NCBI GenBank assembly: GCA_016201695.1
Contig: JACQCK010000015.1
Location: 1-60,601, forward strand
Length of the DNA: 60,601 bases
DNA from: Candidatus Roizmanbacteria bacterium
Lineage (GTDB): Bacteria; Patescibacteriota; Microgenomatia; UBA1406; GWC2-37-13
Direction of reading: 5' to 3'
Part shown: piece after piece, positions 18,565-60,600 of the stretch
Position numbering within the stretch: the first letter of the stretch is position 1
Layout of the letters: every line of letters begins with the position of its first letter
Position numbers and translations under genes: made by a program
Notes under the pieces: generated by a model
Told to the model about the DNA's origin: nothing
Seen by the model: only the letters and a program-made list of their open reading frames with translations
Database searches by the model: none

Positions 18565-18843
18565 ATGTATTTTGTTTATATCCTCTTTTCAACTAAAGAT
18601 AAGTTGCTTTATACCGGATTTACCACCGACTTAAGATCTAGACTTAAGTCACATGCAGACGGTTTTGTAAAATCGACCCAACACCGAAGGCCGTTAAAAC
18701 TAATTTACTATGAGGCATATGCTGATGAGCTAGACGCGAGACGAAGAGAAATGTATTTAAAAGGAGGAAATGGCAAGTCTCAGCTTAGAATTCAATTAGT
18801 CGAAATATTTAAACAATTACAATATCGATGCTACGCTTTATAA
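18565..18843 (+). CDS. GIY-YIG domain endonuclease, small (YhbQ-like)
   Basis: 92 residues. A single GIY-YIG nuclease domain: FVYILFSTKDKLLYTGFTTDLRSRLKSH, with the two-part YIL/YTG core and catalytic Arg, then the conserved LIYYEAYADELDARRREMYLKG block with the metal-binding Glu. Such mini-proteins are very common in CPR genomes and of unknown use; repair or a mobile origin has been suggested. It is a single gene downstream of the structured intergenic region, without an obvious operon. The ATG is close to a weak -10 (TAGGAT). Confidence 0.88.
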   Translation: MYFVYILFSTKDKLLYTGFTTDLRSRLKSHADGFVKSTQHRRPLKLIYYEAYADELDARRREMYLKGGNGKSQLRIQLVEIFKQLQYRCYAL

Positions 18844-27724: not shown

Positions 27725-28180
27725 TCAGTGTACCGAAATGATGCGAAATTCTTTAACGCCGCCCGGCGTTAAAACCGAAATTTTATCTCCCGGTTTTTTT
27801 CCAAAAAGGTTGCGTCCCAACGGTGAACGATCGGTAATCTCGTTTTTTAGGGGATCGGCTTCGTAAGTTCCGACAAGAAAATAGGTATATGTTTTTCCTT
27901 CAGACTCAACGCCAACCGTCGAGCCGATTCCGGCGATCTCGTTACTGGGCCGCTTCGCCACTTCGGAGGTGGCGATTTGGTGTTTGAGCCGTCTCAATTG
28001 ACTATCGATAGAAGATAATTTCCACCTTGCTGAACGATAGGCGGCATTTTCACTCAAATCACCCATCGCCCGATACTCGGCAAGCAGGCCAACGGCGACC
28101 CCCCTTGTTTTTAGAAGTTCTTTTTCAGAAGAAAGCAACCGGTTAAAACCCTCTTGGGTGATCGCATTTTTGGGTTTCAC
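27725..28180 (-). CDS. greA: Transcription elongation factor GreA
   Basis: 151 residues, normal GreA size. It rescues backtracked RNA polymerase by stimulating transcript cleavage. The N-terminal coiled coil has the acidic tip in GDLSENAAYRSA, and the C-terminal FKBP-like domain has SPLGRNLFGKKPGDKISVLTPGG. The coding region contains one copy of the CGCCACCTCCGAAGTGGCG hairpin (27956-27974), which encodes ATSEVA. Its start lies two bases after the rsmI stop, so the order on the minus strand is rsmI then greA. Confidence 0.93.
   Translation of the reverse strand: MKPKNAITQEGFNRLLSSEKELLKTRGVAVGLLAEYRAMGDLSENAAYRSARWKLSSIDSQLRRLKHQIATSEVAKRPSNEIAGIGSTVGVESEGKTYTYFLVGTYEADPLKNEITDRSPLGRNLFGKKPGDKISVLTPGGVKEFRIISVH
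27956..27974 (-). repeat. Short hairpin repeat, copy 1 (inside greA)
   Basis: CGCCACTTCGGAGGTGGCG on the plus strand is the exact reverse complement of copy 2 at 29497-29515. Stem CGCCAC/GTGGCG. Confidence 0.6.
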
Positions 28181-29515: not shown

Positions 29516-29611
29516 TTTAGACTACGAATACAGTCTAATCTTAATTCCGCGTTCAGCCTAAAAGATAATTGCTATTTCATCAGACTGCCTAAACGGGCCA
29601 AAGAGAAATCA

Positions 29612-29626
29612 CCACTTCCGAAGTGG
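29612..29626 (+). repeat. Short hairpin repeat, copy 3 (before uvrB)
   Basis: CCACTTCCGAAGTGG, the core of the same hairpin, 53 bases before the uvrB start. Confidence 0.5.
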
Positions 29627-29661
29627 CAATGAAAAGGAATGACTTCGGGCCGAAAAGGTGA

Positions 29662-54688: not shown

Positions 54689-56053
54689 TTAACGTTTTAA
54701 TTTACCGGCTAGTTCTTTTTTAACTTTTAGCGGGTCGGCCTGGCCTTTCATTTCGCGCATTACCTGGCCGACCAGGAACATGATCACTCGCTCTTTACCC
54801 TTTTTATACTCCTCGACGGCCGACTGATTCTTGGCAAGAACGCTTTTAACAGCGGCGTCTAATTTTTCCATATCAGTGGCCTTAGGTTTATACAGCTCAA
54901 CGACCGACTGTACAAATTTGTCCGGACCCAGGTTTAGCGTCACTCTTTTATTTAGAATCGCGTTGGCAAGTTTTTGCGGAAGGTCCTCGACGATACGGCT
55001 GCCTTTGACCAACGTAAGGCATTTTTCAAAATATCCGGCGACTTCCTTATCTCTCGTCAGTAGGAACGCGTCCGCCTCTTTTAAACCAAATTTTTTAATG
55101 AACCGGTTGGTCTTTGCCGCCGGCAGTTCGGGCAGCGAACCGACAGTCGCCGATAAGTAGTCGGCGCTAAAACTCAGCGGCGGAATGTCCGGGTCGGGAA
55201 AATAACGGTAGTCATGCGTTTCTTCTTTGGAGCGCTGGCTTTTGGTCGAGGAGTCGGCTTCAACAAAGCCGCGTGTTTCCTGAATCGGCGTCTCACCTTT
55301 TTCCAATATCTCAAGGTGGCGCTTCACTTCGTAATCGATGGCTTTTTTTACGAAATTAAAAGAATTAATATTTTTTACCTCGACCTTGTAAGGTGGTAAA
55401 GGAAGCTTGTCATTCTCGTGAACGAGAGAATCTTTTTGAGAGCCCGGATCAAGTCCGGGATGACAGACACGGACCGATATATTTGGCTCCAACCTCATCG
55501 AGCCTTTTTCCATATCGGCATCCGACACATCGAGATATTTAATAATTGTATGTAGTTCTTGCAAAAATTCCTTGACGTCGTTGGAGTTGTCAAAATCGGG
55601 TTCGGTGACGATTTCCACCAATGGAACGCCGGAACGGTTAAAATCAACTAACGTATCCTTTCCCGAATGTATTAATTTACCGGTGTCTTCTTCAAGATGT
55701 ACCCGTTGAACGCGAAATTTTTTTCCCTTCAATTTAAGGTAACCGTTAACCGCAATCGGTTCAACGTATTGACTGATCTGATAGCCCTTCGGCAAATCGG
55801 GATAAAAATAGTGTTTGCGGTCGAATTTACTTAGCGAGGCCAGTTGACAGTTGAGTGCTTTACCGATCTTCATCGTCCAGTTGACGGCGGTCTCGTTGGG
55901 GACAGGCAGCGCGCCCGGCATCCCCAGACACACCGGACAGGTATTTGAATTAGGCGGCTTGGCAAAATAATCGGCCGAACACTGACAGAACATCTTGGAC
56001 GCCGTCTTCAGCTCGACGTGGATTTCCAGCCCGATTACCGGAATGTATTTCAT
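54689..56053 (-). CDS. gatB: Glutamyl/aspartyl-tRNA amidotransferase subunit B, with a repeat-encoded insert
   Basis: 454 residues from MKYIPVIGLEIHVE. The tRNA-binding and kinase subunit that makes Gln-tRNA or Asn-tRNA from misacylated precursors. FCQCSADYF with NTCPVCLGMPGALP is the zinc site; HYFYPDLPKGYQISQ and ETRGF are signatures. A segment of about 20 residues (CHPGLDPGSQKDSLVHEND) interrupts the strand between ISVR and PPYKVEVKNINSF. It is encoded by a palindromic repeat (55409-55464). The longer open frame to 56188 translates a second repeat and is not part of the protein. Confidence 0.93.
   Translation of the reverse strand: MKYIPVIGLEIHVELKTASKMFCQCSADYFAKPPNSNTCPVCLGMPGALPVPNETAVNWTMKIGKALNCQLASLSKFDRKHYFYPDLPKGYQISQYVEPIAVNGYLKLKGKKFRVQRVHLEEDTGKLIHSGKDTLVDFNRSGVPLVEIVTEPDFDNSNDVKEFLQELHTIIKYLDVSDADMEKGSMRLEPNISVRVCHPGLDPGSQKDSLVHENDKLPLPPYKVEVKNINSFNFVKKAIDYEVKRHLEILEKGETPIQETRGFVEADSSTKSQRSKEETHDYRYFPDPDIPPLSFSADYLSATVGSLPELPAAKTNRFIKKFGLKEADAFLLTRDKEVAGYFEKCLTLVKGSRIVEDLPQKLANAILNKRVTLNLGPDKFVQSVVELYKPKATDMEKLDAAVKSVLAKNQSAVEEYKKGKERVIMFLVGQVMREMKGQADPLKVKKELAGKLKR
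55409..55464 (-). repeat. Double-hairpin palindromic repeat, copy A (in frame inside gatB)
   Basis: 56 bases bounded by GTCAT and ATGAC. Hairpin 1 is TCTCGT-GA-ACGAGA; hairpin 2 is CCCGGA-TCAAG-TCCGGG. It encodes the HPGLDPGS-type peptide often translated from such repeats in alphaproteobacteria and other bacteria. No stop codons in the gatB frame. Confidence 0.85.
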
Positions 56054-56060
56054 AAAATTT

Positions 56061-56124
56061 GTCGTTCCCGCGGAAGCGGGAATCTGGAAACTTACAAGAT
56101 CCTCACTTCCGTGAGGATGACGAC
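56061..56124 (-). repeat. Double-hairpin palindromic repeat, copy B (between gatA and gatB)
   Basis: 64 bases bounded by GTCGT and ATGACGAC. Hairpins TTCCCGC-GGAA-GCGGGAA and ATCCTCAC-TTCC-GTGAGGAT are both perfect. It fills the gap between the gatA stop codon, which overlaps its last base, and the gatB start. Confidence 0.85.
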
Positions 56125-57491
56125 TAATCGTCTTTATAATTTTCAATTCCTTTTTTAATAACACCGAAAAACTCGGTCTCCTTTTCAAATTGATAAGCCA
56201 GCGATAAAAGAGTTTCCTCCTTAAAATAGTTACCCATTATCTGAAGACCAATCGGCAGACCGTTCGTATCGGTCCCGCAGGGAATATTAACGGCCGGAAT
56301 TCCGGCGACCGCCGCCGGTTCGTTCAGGATGTCCATTACTTCGCCGAAAAATGGATACTTTTCAAATTCGCCAAGCTTGAGGGCGGTAATCGGAGCGGTC
56401 GGACTGATGATAACGTCAACGTCGTTAAATATTTCCTTAAAATTCTTAATTATAAGTGTGCGGACCTTCTGTGCTTTCTTATAAAAGGCGTCGTAATAAC
56501 CGTAGGATAAAGTATAGGCGCCAAGCATAATCCTCTTCTTGGCTTCGGCGGCGAAAAAGGCCCGGCTGCCGCCATAGCGAATGCCGTCATAGCGAGCGAG
56601 GTTTGACGAAACTTCGGCTCTTTGCAGGACGGTATAGACGGAAATCGAGTATTTGGGTGACAGCAGGCGCACTTTTTTTACCCGGTGGCCTAATTTTTGG
56701 AAAATCTCGACCGCTTTTTCCACCGCTGCTTTTACTTCAACGTTCACGCTGTCAAAATATTCTTCGGCAACGCCAACGGTCAGCTTCCTTCTTTCCGCCA
56801 AAGACGAGAGGTAATCGGGAACGGGTCGCGGACTTGAGGTAGCGTCATAGCGGTCGCGCCCGGCAATCAGACCGAGGATAAAGGCGGCGTCTTCGACAGT
56901 CGCGGTGATTGGCCCCGGACAGTCAAACGACGACCCCATGGCGACGACTCCGTATCGCGACACACGGCCGAAGGTCGGTTTCAGGCCAACGACGCCGCAC
57001 CACGATGCCGGCTGGCGGATTGATCCTGCCGTCTCGGAGCCGATGGCCGCCGGTGCCAGATAAGCGGAAACGGCGGCGGCCGAACCGCCGGAAGAGCCGC
57101 CTGGCGCGCGCGTCGTGTCCCACGGATTTTTCGTTGGGCCGTAATCGGAAGTTTCGGTCGATGAACCGTGTGCCCAGGCGTCCATGTTGGTCTTGCCGAT
57201 TACCGTCAACTGGTTCTTTTTCAGCCGGTCGGTCACCGTCGATTCGTACGGTGGGATAAAATCGTCGAGTACCTTCGCCGAAGCGGTTGTTCGGACGCCG
57301 CGGGTGCAGAAATTATCCTTAACGCCAATCGGCAGTCCGCCGTCTTCCGCAACGACCGAAAGAAAGGCGTTTAAAACACCGTTATATTTTGCAATTCGCT
57401 TCCTAAAGTAAGACGACACTTCCGGCGCGCTCACTTCTTTTTGCGTAACCAGCTTCTTGAGTTCCAGCAGTGACTTACCAAATAGCTTCAT
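56124..57491 (-). CDS. gatA: Glutamyl/aspartyl-tRNA amidotransferase subunit A
   Basis: 455 residues. The amidase that releases ammonia from glutamine or asparagine for GatB. The Ser-cisSer-Lys triad is visible: Lys in PIGVKDNFCTRG, the glycine/serine motif APGGSSGGSAAAVSA, and GSETAGSIRQPASWCGVVGLKPTFGRVSRYG. It overlaps gatC by four bases (ATGA). The TAG stop touches palindromic repeat B. Confidence 0.96.
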   Translation of the reverse strand: MKLFGKSLLELKKLVTQKEVSAPEVSSYFRKRIAKYNGVLNAFLSVVAEDGGLPIGVKDNFCTRGVRTTASAKVLDDFIPPYESTVTDRLKKNQLTVIGKTNMDAWAHGSSTETSDYGPTKNPWDTTRAPGGSSGGSAAAVSAYLAPAAIGSETAGSIRQPASWCGVVGLKPTFGRVSRYGVVAMGSSFDCPGPITATVEDAAFILGLIAGRDRYDATSSPRPVPDYLSSLAERRKLTVGVAEEYFDSVNVEVKAAVEKAVEIFQKLGHRVKKVRLLSPKYSISVYTVLQRAEVSSNLARYDGIRYGGSRAFFAAEAKKRIMLGAYTLSYGYYDAFYKKAQKVRTLIIKNFKEIFNDVDVIISPTAPITALKLGEFEKYPFFGEVMDILNEPAAVAGIPAVNIPCGTDTNGLPIGLQIMGNYFKEETLLSLAYQFEKETEFFGVIKKGIENYKDD

Positions 57492-58055: not shown

Positions 58056-58400
58056 TCAGGCAGTATAGCAGATCGCAATCGGAGTTTGCTCGGCTCCCTG
58101 GCCCATAGGGTTATCAGCGAAAACCGCTTCGATAATCTTGTCCGGCAGGGGAGTCGTATTCCCAAGCACATTCCGGCCAAGATCGTTGGCATCAATGATA
58201 ACCGCGCCCAGAAAGCCCGGCCGGGAAGGTACCGCCTGACGGATGGCAGCGTCAATTTTCTCGGCGGCCGCCGCCGGATCTTTCGGTCCGAGCTTGGCCG
58301 AGACGTTTGCCGGGTAAAGCGAGTACTCTGTCGGCCCGTCAATCGAGCGAACGGTCGGGCCGGCAAATAAAATATGATCTTCCTTGCGAAATCGCGACAA
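58056..58400 (-). pseudogene. CofE-like (F420-0:glutamate ligase family) gene remnant
   Basis: The frame encodes the C-terminal half of a CofE-family protein: SIDGPTEYSLYPANVSAKLGP, GAVIIDANDLGRNVLGN and EAVFADNPMGQGAEQTPIAI. The N-terminal half (NEGKKIAIQVESKTYQRYPIK, later FVAVSEKVVAISQGR) lies upstream in the frame of asnB, split by a palindromic repeat and then a frameshift near 58380. A block of the family (the PSRLA to GLGSPE region, by recall) seems absent. Many CPR genomes carry a CofE-like protein without an F420 pathway. Confidence 0.6.
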
Positions 58401-60600
58401 CTTTCTCCGACACGGCGACAAACCATCGTTTCCTTACACTGTCATCCTCACGTAACTTAGGATCCAGATGCCCTTTTTCGAGAGAACGACAAAATATTCT
58501 GATATGCTCGGCTATTTTTTTAGCAAAGTCGTCCCCTTTTTGGAAAAGGTCGGTTTTAATCGGGTATCGTTGGTAGGTCTTGCTCTCAACTTGGATCGCT
58601 ATTTTTTTTCCTTCATTGGCTTGATAGGGAAACTCGTTAATCAGTGAATCAGTTAACTTCTTCTCCGGCTTGACGTCGATAAACTCGCGTAACCACAGCT
58701 CAAGATTTAACATTCGCCAGAAGGGTAAGGTATCGTCGTTTTTCCCGGCGATAAAATCCGCAAAGGCCCGCAGCACTTCTTTCTGATTAAAATATGGGCG
58801 CCCAACAAACGATTCGCTTAAAAAAATCTGGTAAATCCGGTTTTTCAGGCGCACGAGCCAGTCGTACTCGGGTGTCGTGAAGCCAATCTTATTGCGGCGT
58901 TTGACGATCTTCGGCGGCAAGAAATCGGCGACCGCCGCCCTAAGAATATTTTTATTCCAGCCGGCCTTAATAATCGCCTCGCTGTCCAAAGAAAAAAGAT
59001 AGCGCAGCAGGTTAAAGTCCAAAAACGGCACCCGGCCCTCGATGGAAAAGCGCATTGAGTTTTTGTCTTCGTAGCGAAGAAGCGCCGGCAAACTATTACT
59101 AAAGATATCCTCAATAAGCCGTTTTTTTAGGTTGTCCCGGGTCGGCGAAAAACGCTCATCCTGATATTTTTTGGCAAACTCCCGGCCCAACATTTTTTCC
59201 ACGTTCACGTCCCGCTTAAGTCCGGTGACACGCTTGACTTTGATTAAAAAATACTTCGCGATTATGTCGAGGGCACCGGCTACTTCCCGACCCCATTTGA
59301 AAAAGCGGCCGGTTTTCCAAAGCTCCCGAAGATAGACAAAATAATAAGGCAAGTAACCGGCCATCATCTCGTCCGCTCCCTGACCGTCCAATACCACCGT
59401 CACATACTTGTGGGCCTCCTCCATTACTTTATACTGGGCGTACGGGCCGGTGCTGATCGTCGGCTCTTCCTGTGTCCTGACAAAGTCGGCCATTTCGGTA
59501 AAAAACCGCTCCGACGTCGGCCTGACTTTGTAATTTTTAAGGTCGCCAACCTTGTGCACCAGTGTGTCAATGTAATCCTCCTCATCGTTGACGGCGCCGG
59601 GAAAAACCGCCGAAAAAGTTTTTTGGATTTTACCGACCGACTCCGCTTCCCGGACCTTTTCCTTAAGAAGAAGATTGGTCAGCGCCACGACCGTTGAGGA
59701 ATCAAGCCCGCCCGATAAACAGGTCCCGACCGGCACCTCCGAAATAAGGCGTGAACGTACAGCCGCCGTGAGTTGCGCGGTAAACCGTGAAACGGCCGCG
59801 CGCGAAAAACCTTCGCTCTGACGGCTGTTTTCGAGATCGCCTTTTAGGGTCGTAAACGGCTTTATCTCCCATTTTCCGTTTTTAACAACCATCACTTCGC
59901 CCGGCATAAGCTTGTAAACTCCCTTAAAAAAAGTTTCCCTGGAATCGTCGTGAATCCGGTATCTCAAATAGCGATAAATAATTTTGCCATTGGGTATTTT
60001 TTTTACTAAACCGCTATTGATAATTGGCTTAATTTCCGAAGAAAATATTAAGCTATTCTGCATAGAACCCGTAGATACCCGTTTCGAACGACTTGGGACG
60101 TGCGCAGCGGAGCGAGCAGGCCCACGGAGTTGAGAAATGTTGGTATCGAGGGTTCTGTTAAGAATAGAATAGTACAGCGGTTTAATGCCGAAATGGTCGC
60201 GGGCGAGAAGCAGCTTTTTCCTTTTTTTATCGTAGAGGGCAACGGCAAACATGGCGTTAAACCGGTCAAAACATCTCTCTCCCCACTCTTCATATCCGTG
60301 CGCGATCACTTCGGTATCGGACTTGGTTGCGAAACGGTGGCCTTTTCTTTCCAGTTCTTTTCTAAGTTCGCGGTAGTTGTACATCTCGCCGTTATAAACG
60401 ACGGCGACGGAACGGTCTTCGTTATAAATCGGCTGATCGCCGCCGGCGACATCGATGATGGCCAGGCGACGGCTCAAAAGACTGACCTCGTCGTCGATAA
60501 AAAAACCCTGGCCGTCGGGACCCCGATGGGCCAGTTCACCCGAGAATTTTTGAATCAACTGATCGTTACGAAATCCGTAAAAGCCGGCAATGCCGCACAT
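58339..60600 (-). CDS. asnB: Asparagine synthase (glutamine-hydrolysing) with a repeat insert and a fused CofE-like remnant
   Basis: 753 residues. It makes asparagine from aspartate, glutamine and ATP. The glutaminase domain starts MCGIAGF with the catalytic Cys2; RLAIIDVAGGDQP, VVYNGEMYNYRELR and LARDHFGIKPLYY follow. The synthetase domain has the PP-loop GTCLSGGLDSSTVV and SIEGRVPFLDFNLLRY. Residues 146-182 are an insert encoded by an inverted-repeat element (60053-60167). The AsnB body ends near residue 645 (LWLREFID); the rest is the N-terminal half of a CofE-like protein with repeat C inside it. It starts at the last bases of the window, and its promoter is outside. Confidence 0.9.
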   Translation of the reverse strand: MCGIAGFYGFRNDQLIQKFSGELAHRGPDGQGFFIDDEVSLLSRRLAIIDVAGGDQPIYNEDRSVAVVYNGEMYNYRELRKELERKGHRFATKSDTEVIAHGYEEWGERCFDRFNAMFAVALYDKKRKKLLLARDHFGIKPLYYSILNRTLDTNISQLRGPARSAAHVPSRSKRVSTGSMQNSLIFSSEIKPIINSGLVKKIPNGKIIYRYLRYRIHDDSRETFFKGVYKLMPGEVMVVKNGKWEIKPFTTLKGDLENSRQSEGFSRAAVSRFTAQLTAAVRSRLISEVPVGTCLSGGLDSSTVVALTNLLLKEKVREAESVGKIQKTFSAVFPGAVNDEEDYIDTLVHKVGDLKNYKVRPTSERFFTEMADFVRTQEEPTISTGPYAQYKVMEEAHKYVTVVLDGQGADEMMAGYLPYYFVYLRELWKTGRFFKWGREVAGALDIIAKYFLIKVKRVTGLKRDVNVEKMLGREFAKKYQDERFSPTRDNLKKRLIEDIFSNSLPALLRYEDKNSMRFSIEGRVPFLDFNLLRYLFSLDSEAIIKAGWNKNILRAAVADFLPPKIVKRRNKIGFTTPEYDWLVRLKNRIYQIFLSESFVGRPYFNQKEVLRAFADFIAGKNDDTLPFWRMLNLELWLREFIDVKPEKKLTDSLINEFPYQANEGKKIAIQVESKTYQRYPIKTDLFQKGDDFAKKIAEHIRIFCRSLEKGHLDPKLREDDSVRKRWFVAVSEKVVAISQGRSYFICRPDRSLD
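58441..58490 (-). repeat. Double-hairpin palindromic repeat, copy C (degenerate, in asnB-CofE frame)
   Basis: 50 bases starting GTCATCCTCACG and ending GAACGAC. ATCCT/AGGAT stem is kept but the rest of the pairing has decayed. It encodes SLEKGHLDPKLREDDS in the asnB frame, the same peptide family as copies A and B. Confidence 0.65.
60053..60167 (-). repeat. 115-base inverted-repeat element in frame inside asnB
   Basis: The left end reads CTATTCTGCATAGAACCC and the right end GGGTTCTGTTAAGAATAG; inside these, GTAGATACC pairs with GGTATCGA imperfectly. The element encodes about 37 residues (LNRTLDTNISQLRG, HVPSRSKRVSTGS) without a stop in the asnB frame. It differs from the double-hairpin family of copies A-C. 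Confidence 0.75.

Follow-up and report, generated by a model that had tools for sequence, protein, structure and literature searches.

Rickettsia has been known for more than 20 years to carry palindromic repeats that are inserted into genes and translated with them. In the published classification of repetitive extragenic palindromes (REPs), the R. conorii elements RPE-4 and RPE-6, together with the neisserial dRS3 repeats and to the exclusion of RPE-1, belong to the superfamily of CGTC-tagged REPs (PMC3733652). Many copies of this superfamily lie inside genes, heterodimers were found without an obvious explanation, the repeats were stated to have no dedicated transposase, and no RAYT flanked by CGTC units was found in that 2013 survey, in which GTAG-tagged REPs were associated with RAYTs (Di Nocera et al. 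2013, PMC3733652). For CPR/Patescibacteria, we found no report of palindromic elements or CGTC REPs in the open-access literature.

We analysed a stretch of 60,601 nt from a Candidatus Roizmanbacteria genome (here called the window); named GatB relatives place the genome in Microgenomates, nearest to Candidatus Roizmanbacteria. In the window, the initial annotation had described a palindromic 56-base double hairpin with GTCAT...ATGAC ends, placed in frame inside gatB. Sequence and folding confirmed this description: the 56-bp insert, GTCATTCTCGTGAACGAGAGAATCTTTTTGAGAGCCCGGATCAAGTCCGGGATGAC, is made of two hairpins closed by GTCAT/ATGAC, with fold z-scores of -2.0 and -2.7, one per strand (Table 1). 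A TGTC tag stands at each outer end, both tags pointing outward, and the stems, which start with AT, have 8 bp in both units, with loops of 4 and 5 nt, and one or two of the pairs are decayed. Having one unit with a 5-nt loop and the other with a 4-nt loop, the insert is a heterodimer. The tails are CTT/CTC in the gatB copy and CTG/CTT in a neighbouring dimer of the gatB-gatA spacer, and in most relatives they are CCA or CTA. The gatB repeat family shares with CGTC REPs the unpaired GTC tag, the stem of 8-9 bp starting from AT, the loop of 4-5 nt, the CCA/CTA-like tail, the head-to-head hetero- or homodimers and the intragenic copies, and the gatB repeat belongs to the CGTC-tagged superfamily under the published scheme (PMC3733652). 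A covariance model that was built with these units among others scored them at 28.6 and 30.5 bits. The proposal that a CPR genome tolerates, as additional peptide, a repeat resembling the Rickettsia palindromic elements is supported in this more specific form. The link to RPE-4 and RPE-6 goes through the published classification, in-frame insertion in unrelated genes and a tolerated peptide are common to both, and the differences are the host phylum and the small number of copies in the Roizmanbacteria genome.

Table 1. Features of the window that carry or host REP units.
Feature	Position	Strand	Basis or remark
REP head-to-head dimer in gatB	55409..55464	.	sequence, folds, covariance model, absence from closest relatives
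REP unit, 4-nt loop: GTC + ATTCTCGT-GAAC-GAGAGAAT	55409..55431	+	stem imperfect, part-decayed
REP unit, 5-nt loop: GTC + ATCCCGGA-CTTGA-TCCGGGCT	55441..55464	-	one pair decayed
gatB, Asp/Glu-tRNA amidotransferase subunit B, host of the insert	54689..56053	-	Pfam GatB_N 4e-107, GatB_Yqey 3e-17
Second REP head-to-head dimer, gatB-gatA spacer	56061..56121	.	perfect 8-bp stems, 4-nt loops; better preserved than the gatB copy
Third REP dimer, decayed, 3' end of asnB-type frame	58441..58490	.	23.7 and 12.7 bits

Apart from the insert, the host gene encodes a normal GatB, and a related GatB is present in 52 of 57 genomes. The insert is read in frame on the minus strand as the peptide CHPGLDPGSQKDSLVHEND (C197-D215), that is, 19 residues, which corrects a first estimate of about 20; as its length of 56 is not divisible by 3, the net gain in residues depends on the alignment of the loop ends. 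In an AlphaFold model of GatB (mean pLDDT 88), for which 36 Microgenomates sequences were used, the insert is flanked by strands 186-197 and 224-227, in agreement with the position between two beta strands that had been proposed. Residues 207-215 are the only stretch with a pLDDT below 50, suggesting that the insert would form a disordered loop. When GatB was aligned with its relatives, the insert was missing from the close ones, as had been anticipated: the closest relative (65% identity) has ISVRLTGQKELPKYKVEVK at this position, and among the best relatives (61-65% identity, too distant for a base-level empty site) the loop is mostly shorter and the insert sequence is found in none. The gatB insert is now decaying.

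Scanning the window for exact structures (GTC tag, stem of 8-9 bp, loop of 3-6 nt) revealed three units, all in the gatB insert or in the adjacent spacer dimer about 0.6 kb away. Ten versions of the window generated by a first-order Markov model contained 0-3 units each (mean 0.7) and no dimer in the same scan. The decayed third dimer yields FCRSLEKGHLDPKLREDDS in the frame of an asnB-type open frame (58339-60600, minus strand). The covariance model (R1) was built from 15 single units, some of them from the window, so that matches in the window arise by construction; in the whole 985-kb genome (G000) it detected ten units at E<0.05. The initial annotation had suggested searching the genome for the repeat family, and besides intergenic units this search recovered a dimer in frame in pheS, read as SSPSSRGSQKGSHLGENDN (L143, G000:C29:9900-9954), and an in-frame single unit within a gene for a SpoU-type RNA methylase (L142, G000:C40:31943-31969). 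One unit lies between mutM and an IS1595-type transposase frame, and one match is on contig C5. In-frame insertion was thus observed in unrelated genes, namely gatB, pheS, the SpoU-type methylase gene and the end of the asnB frame. The pheS dimer adjoins a Cys-rich loop, FLSSPSSRGSQKGSHLGENDNKIKCKLC.

The family is dispersed and multi-copy, with ten units in G000 and from 0 to at least 134 in its relatives. It is visible only by the structure model, as a 23-base half of the insert, allowing up to 3 mismatches, found no further copy in the genome; a degenerate sequence pattern recovered the window copies only, and no Rfam family reached its gathering score. A sub-threshold likeness to the Rfam family FtrB (Francisella sRNA B; 28.5 bits, cut-off 66) covers the gatB-gatA spacer dimer at 56039-56144, and FtrB may itself be a REP-type element. 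Another palindrome family, GCCACTTCGGAGGTGGCGATTT, occurs at 27957-27978 and 29606-29627 of the window, and a similar sequence may be present upstream of a Y1_Tnp-like frame on contig C47.

Beyond the window, the strongest unit of G000 directly adjoins a truncated GIY-YIG frame, and for this reason we sampled the surroundings of GIY-YIG genes in relatives. Sixty stretches from 20 REP-bearing genomes, taken largely in the order of their profile scores, were scanned with R1, and a gene was considered enclosed when REPs lay at most 150 bp away on both sides with their tags outward. Head-to-head enclosure by REPs was found for 13 of 64 GIY-YIG genes and, among the 509 other genes that these stretches contain, for 2 (Fisher p 1.2e-11); that only 13 of 64 scored reflects the large size of the GIY-YIG family, the association concerning one subgroup. 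The full REP-GIY-REP unit measures 337-400 bp in most cases. In one genome (G040), two 341-bp copies on different contigs show high identity between their outermost GTCAT and ATGAC motifs, beyond which they diverge at once into unrelated flanks. A target-site duplication was seen in none of 42 dimers and full units, and the outer base is T before GTC in 33 of 42 elements and A after GAC in 33 of 42 (an edge of the form T/GTC...GAC/A). In another genome (G007), the dimers show the left and right end types of the full unit of that genome, which would also explain the heterodimers reported previously (PMC3733652). The window has a GIY-YIG gene of its own (18565-18777), which belongs to another subgroup (it fits A4 better than A3) and has no REP units.

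When 67 GIY proteins were placed in a tree, one half, of 33 rows, contained every one of the 18 structurally enclosed members and the remaining 34 rows none; the alignment had few columns, and the support for the basal split was weak (69). Enclosure changed label 7 times along the tree, compared with 16 by chance. Nine unscored CPR members of the REP half had their flanks read by eye, and GTCAT..ATGAC-type palindromes were present in all nine, two of them of R1 type (enclosed in the model scan) and seven of sister types, which include the GTCATTGCGAG type also found in GatB inserts. The REP-associated nucleases have Y18, R28, H32, E65 and N84 as invariant catalytic positions. Across the 57 related genomes, the nuclease gene was present in 19 of the 23 with at least ten REP units and in 3 of the 34 others (p 1.5e-8), and REP copy number rose with the number of nuclease genes (Spearman rho 0.75, and 0.73 within the family alone, shared ancestry being uncorrected). 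G000 has only a truncated gene of the REP-associated group, with a REP on one side, which fits its few, partly decayed units. Together with G000, the genomes G021, G028 and G047, all draft assemblies, bear REPs and have no intact nuclease gene, and G025 has the nuclease gene and no REP match.

The initial annotation had also raised the idea that related sequence in other phyla could hint at transfer; related units were seen in several phyla. With one nuclease of the REP clade as query, tblastn against plasmid records returned 32 records, mostly from rhizobia and sphingomonads, and matched REPs stood on both sides in 8 of 14 regions (Aeromonas, Azospirillum, Rhizobium, Neorhizobium, two Shinella, Novosphingobium and Sphingobium). 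In Azospirillum lipoferum, a block made of the GIY gene and two REP dimers, one on either side of it, separates sufB from sufC. The block is missing between these genes in three close relatives (A. ramasamyi, A. oryzae and Azospirillum sp. B510), the edges of the empty site being unreadable because the spacers have diverged. Searches for empty sites gave nothing usable for the Rhizobium unit and only scattered repeat pieces for the Sinorhizobium copy. The neisserial dRS3 repeats are similar in having CGTC-1 type units (PMC3733652), and a GIY-YIG relative lies in a REP cluster of a Neisseria record; they differ in forming clustered arrays, and the Neisseria gene was not cleanly enclosed in the structural scan.

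In our view, the gatB insert probably represents a REP-ended mobile element in non-autonomous form; REP-GIY-REP would be the full form of this element and the dimers trans-mobilised deletion derivatives. The ends of the element would be CGTC-tagged REP hairpins, one with a 5-nt and one with a 4-nt loop, tags outward, and its autonomous form a unit of 340-400 bp in which two REPs enclose the gene of the GIY-YIG nuclease. The REP dimers of 50-75 bp, that of gatB included, would have lost their interior and be mobilised in trans, much as REPINs depend on RAYT transposases. We infer that the nuclease mobilises the REPs and that the loss of its gene turns full units into dimers, and we propose it as a candidate mobility enzyme of CGTC REPs. 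It would probably cut the DNA at or near the REP hairpins, copying or repair without target-site duplication then following; cleavage of REPs with repair copying and single-strand steps are both possible routes. In gatB, the element would have landed in a surface loop in which its frame was by chance open, and would be tolerated as a disordered extra peptide.

This arrangement has inverted REP pairs as putative non-autonomous units and one associated gene family in common with the REPIN/RAYT system (PMC3116915), and differs from it in its tag, GTC instead of GTAG, in a GIY-YIG nuclease instead of a Y1 transposase, and in the enclosure of the nuclease gene by REPs. The 2013 description gave CGTC REPs no associated transposase, whereas the relatives studied here enclose a GIY-YIG nuclease gene. 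No title or abstract in the open-access literature linked GIY-YIG to REPs, terminal inverted repeats, dRS3/MITE or RAYT/REPIN, and no open-access full-text paper contained "GIY-YIG" together with "repetitive extragenic palindromic". The chances seem to us about even for the wider proposal, that widespread tiny elements without a transposase, each a GIY-YIG gene between GTC-tagged hairpins, move themselves and, in trans, CGTC REPs, RPE-4/6 and dRS3 from CPR to Proteobacteria, yielding in-frame peptide inserts in essential genes. If true, they could be the missing "engine" of a repeat family of many bacteria. The nuclease gene enclosed in CGTC REPs is short and expressible, which makes the question of mobility directly testable.

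GIY-YIG enzymes are classical homing endonucleases, and the main competing explanation is that the gene homes into REP dimers, between their hairpins, the dimers being spread by something else. The nuclease domain family and the conserved catalytic positions are shared with these enzymes, and homing would likewise produce the REP-gene-REP layout and a co-occurrence of the gene with REP copy number. However, the ends of the full units match the left/right polarity of the local dimers, the two full copies of one genome show high identity from tip to tip in unrelated flanks, which fits movement of the whole unit, and homing leaves the mobility of the REPs without an engine. We regard homing as the less likely reading. 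Unlike those of the homing enzymes, the gene is short and free-standing within terminal hairpins, with no intron or intein.

We give still less weight to a movement of the REPs by a RAYT/Y1 transposase or another IS200-like enzyme, with the GIY-YIG gene as a passenger. The association of GTAG-tagged REPs with RAYTs and one weak Y1_Tnp-like frame in G000 speak in its favour, but RAYTs flanked by CGTC units were absent from the 2013 survey (PMC3733652), and if the gene were only a passenger, its recurrence in both Microgenomates and Proteobacteria would be surprising. The lone Y1_Tnp-like frame of G000 scored below the family cut-off, and its contig, C47, carries no REP unit by R1; as the mobiliser in this genome it was rejected.

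That the insert is an ancestral, functional extension of GatB would suit its frame and its tolerance in an essential gene, but is very improbable, since the alignment contradicts it with its absence from the closest GatBs, matching units occur elsewhere in the genome, and the insert is palindromic, predicted to be disordered and losing its stem pairs. An artefact of assembly or binning, conceivable in a draft genome of 57 contigs, is just as improbable given units on several contigs, an open frame and the equivalent inserts that other groups carry in independent genomes.

These equivalent inserts came from an alignment in which the GatB of the window was joined by 162 others from Microgenomates and CPR groups close to them, 163 in all. 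GTCAT..ATGAC palindromes in frame were found in 10 of the 163 (nine besides the window's), and all ten proteins carry them in one of two loops, A and B, or, in two proteins, in both. Loop A is a tight beta turn near residue 109, and loop B, near 204, is where the insert of the window lies. The insert peptides vary (VIASEAKQS..., VISNEVRNPGS..., SHPEFISGS..., VIPAKAGIQ...RLDPLLRGDD), suggesting that the family types differ and were apparently inserted separately, in more than one reading frame. No excess of folding was seen in loops that lack an insert (mean z near 0). An old domain would be conserved across distant CPR GatBs, and what the other Microgenomates GatBs have at the same two loops is unrelated palindromic inserts, or none. 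Repeated and apparently independent palindromes in two loops of one essential protein amount to a natural experiment, and such in-frame inserts supply reduced genomes with new peptide. Low-complexity, non-palindromic tandem inserts were counted apart; in the GatB loops of L017, L095, L188 and L206, at the same two sites, the inserts resemble degenerate tandem repeats.

Genes are under-represented among the sites of the units, yet common: the 58 unit matches in the fetched stretches, some of which served to build R1, comprise 34 intergenic ones, 22 within frames, some of these at doubtful N-termini, and 2 partial ones. Units in frame were also noticed in apparent gatD- or murT-type genes of other genomes (L150, L184 and L132; names from sequence motifs), those of L150 and L184 at the same position of the protein.
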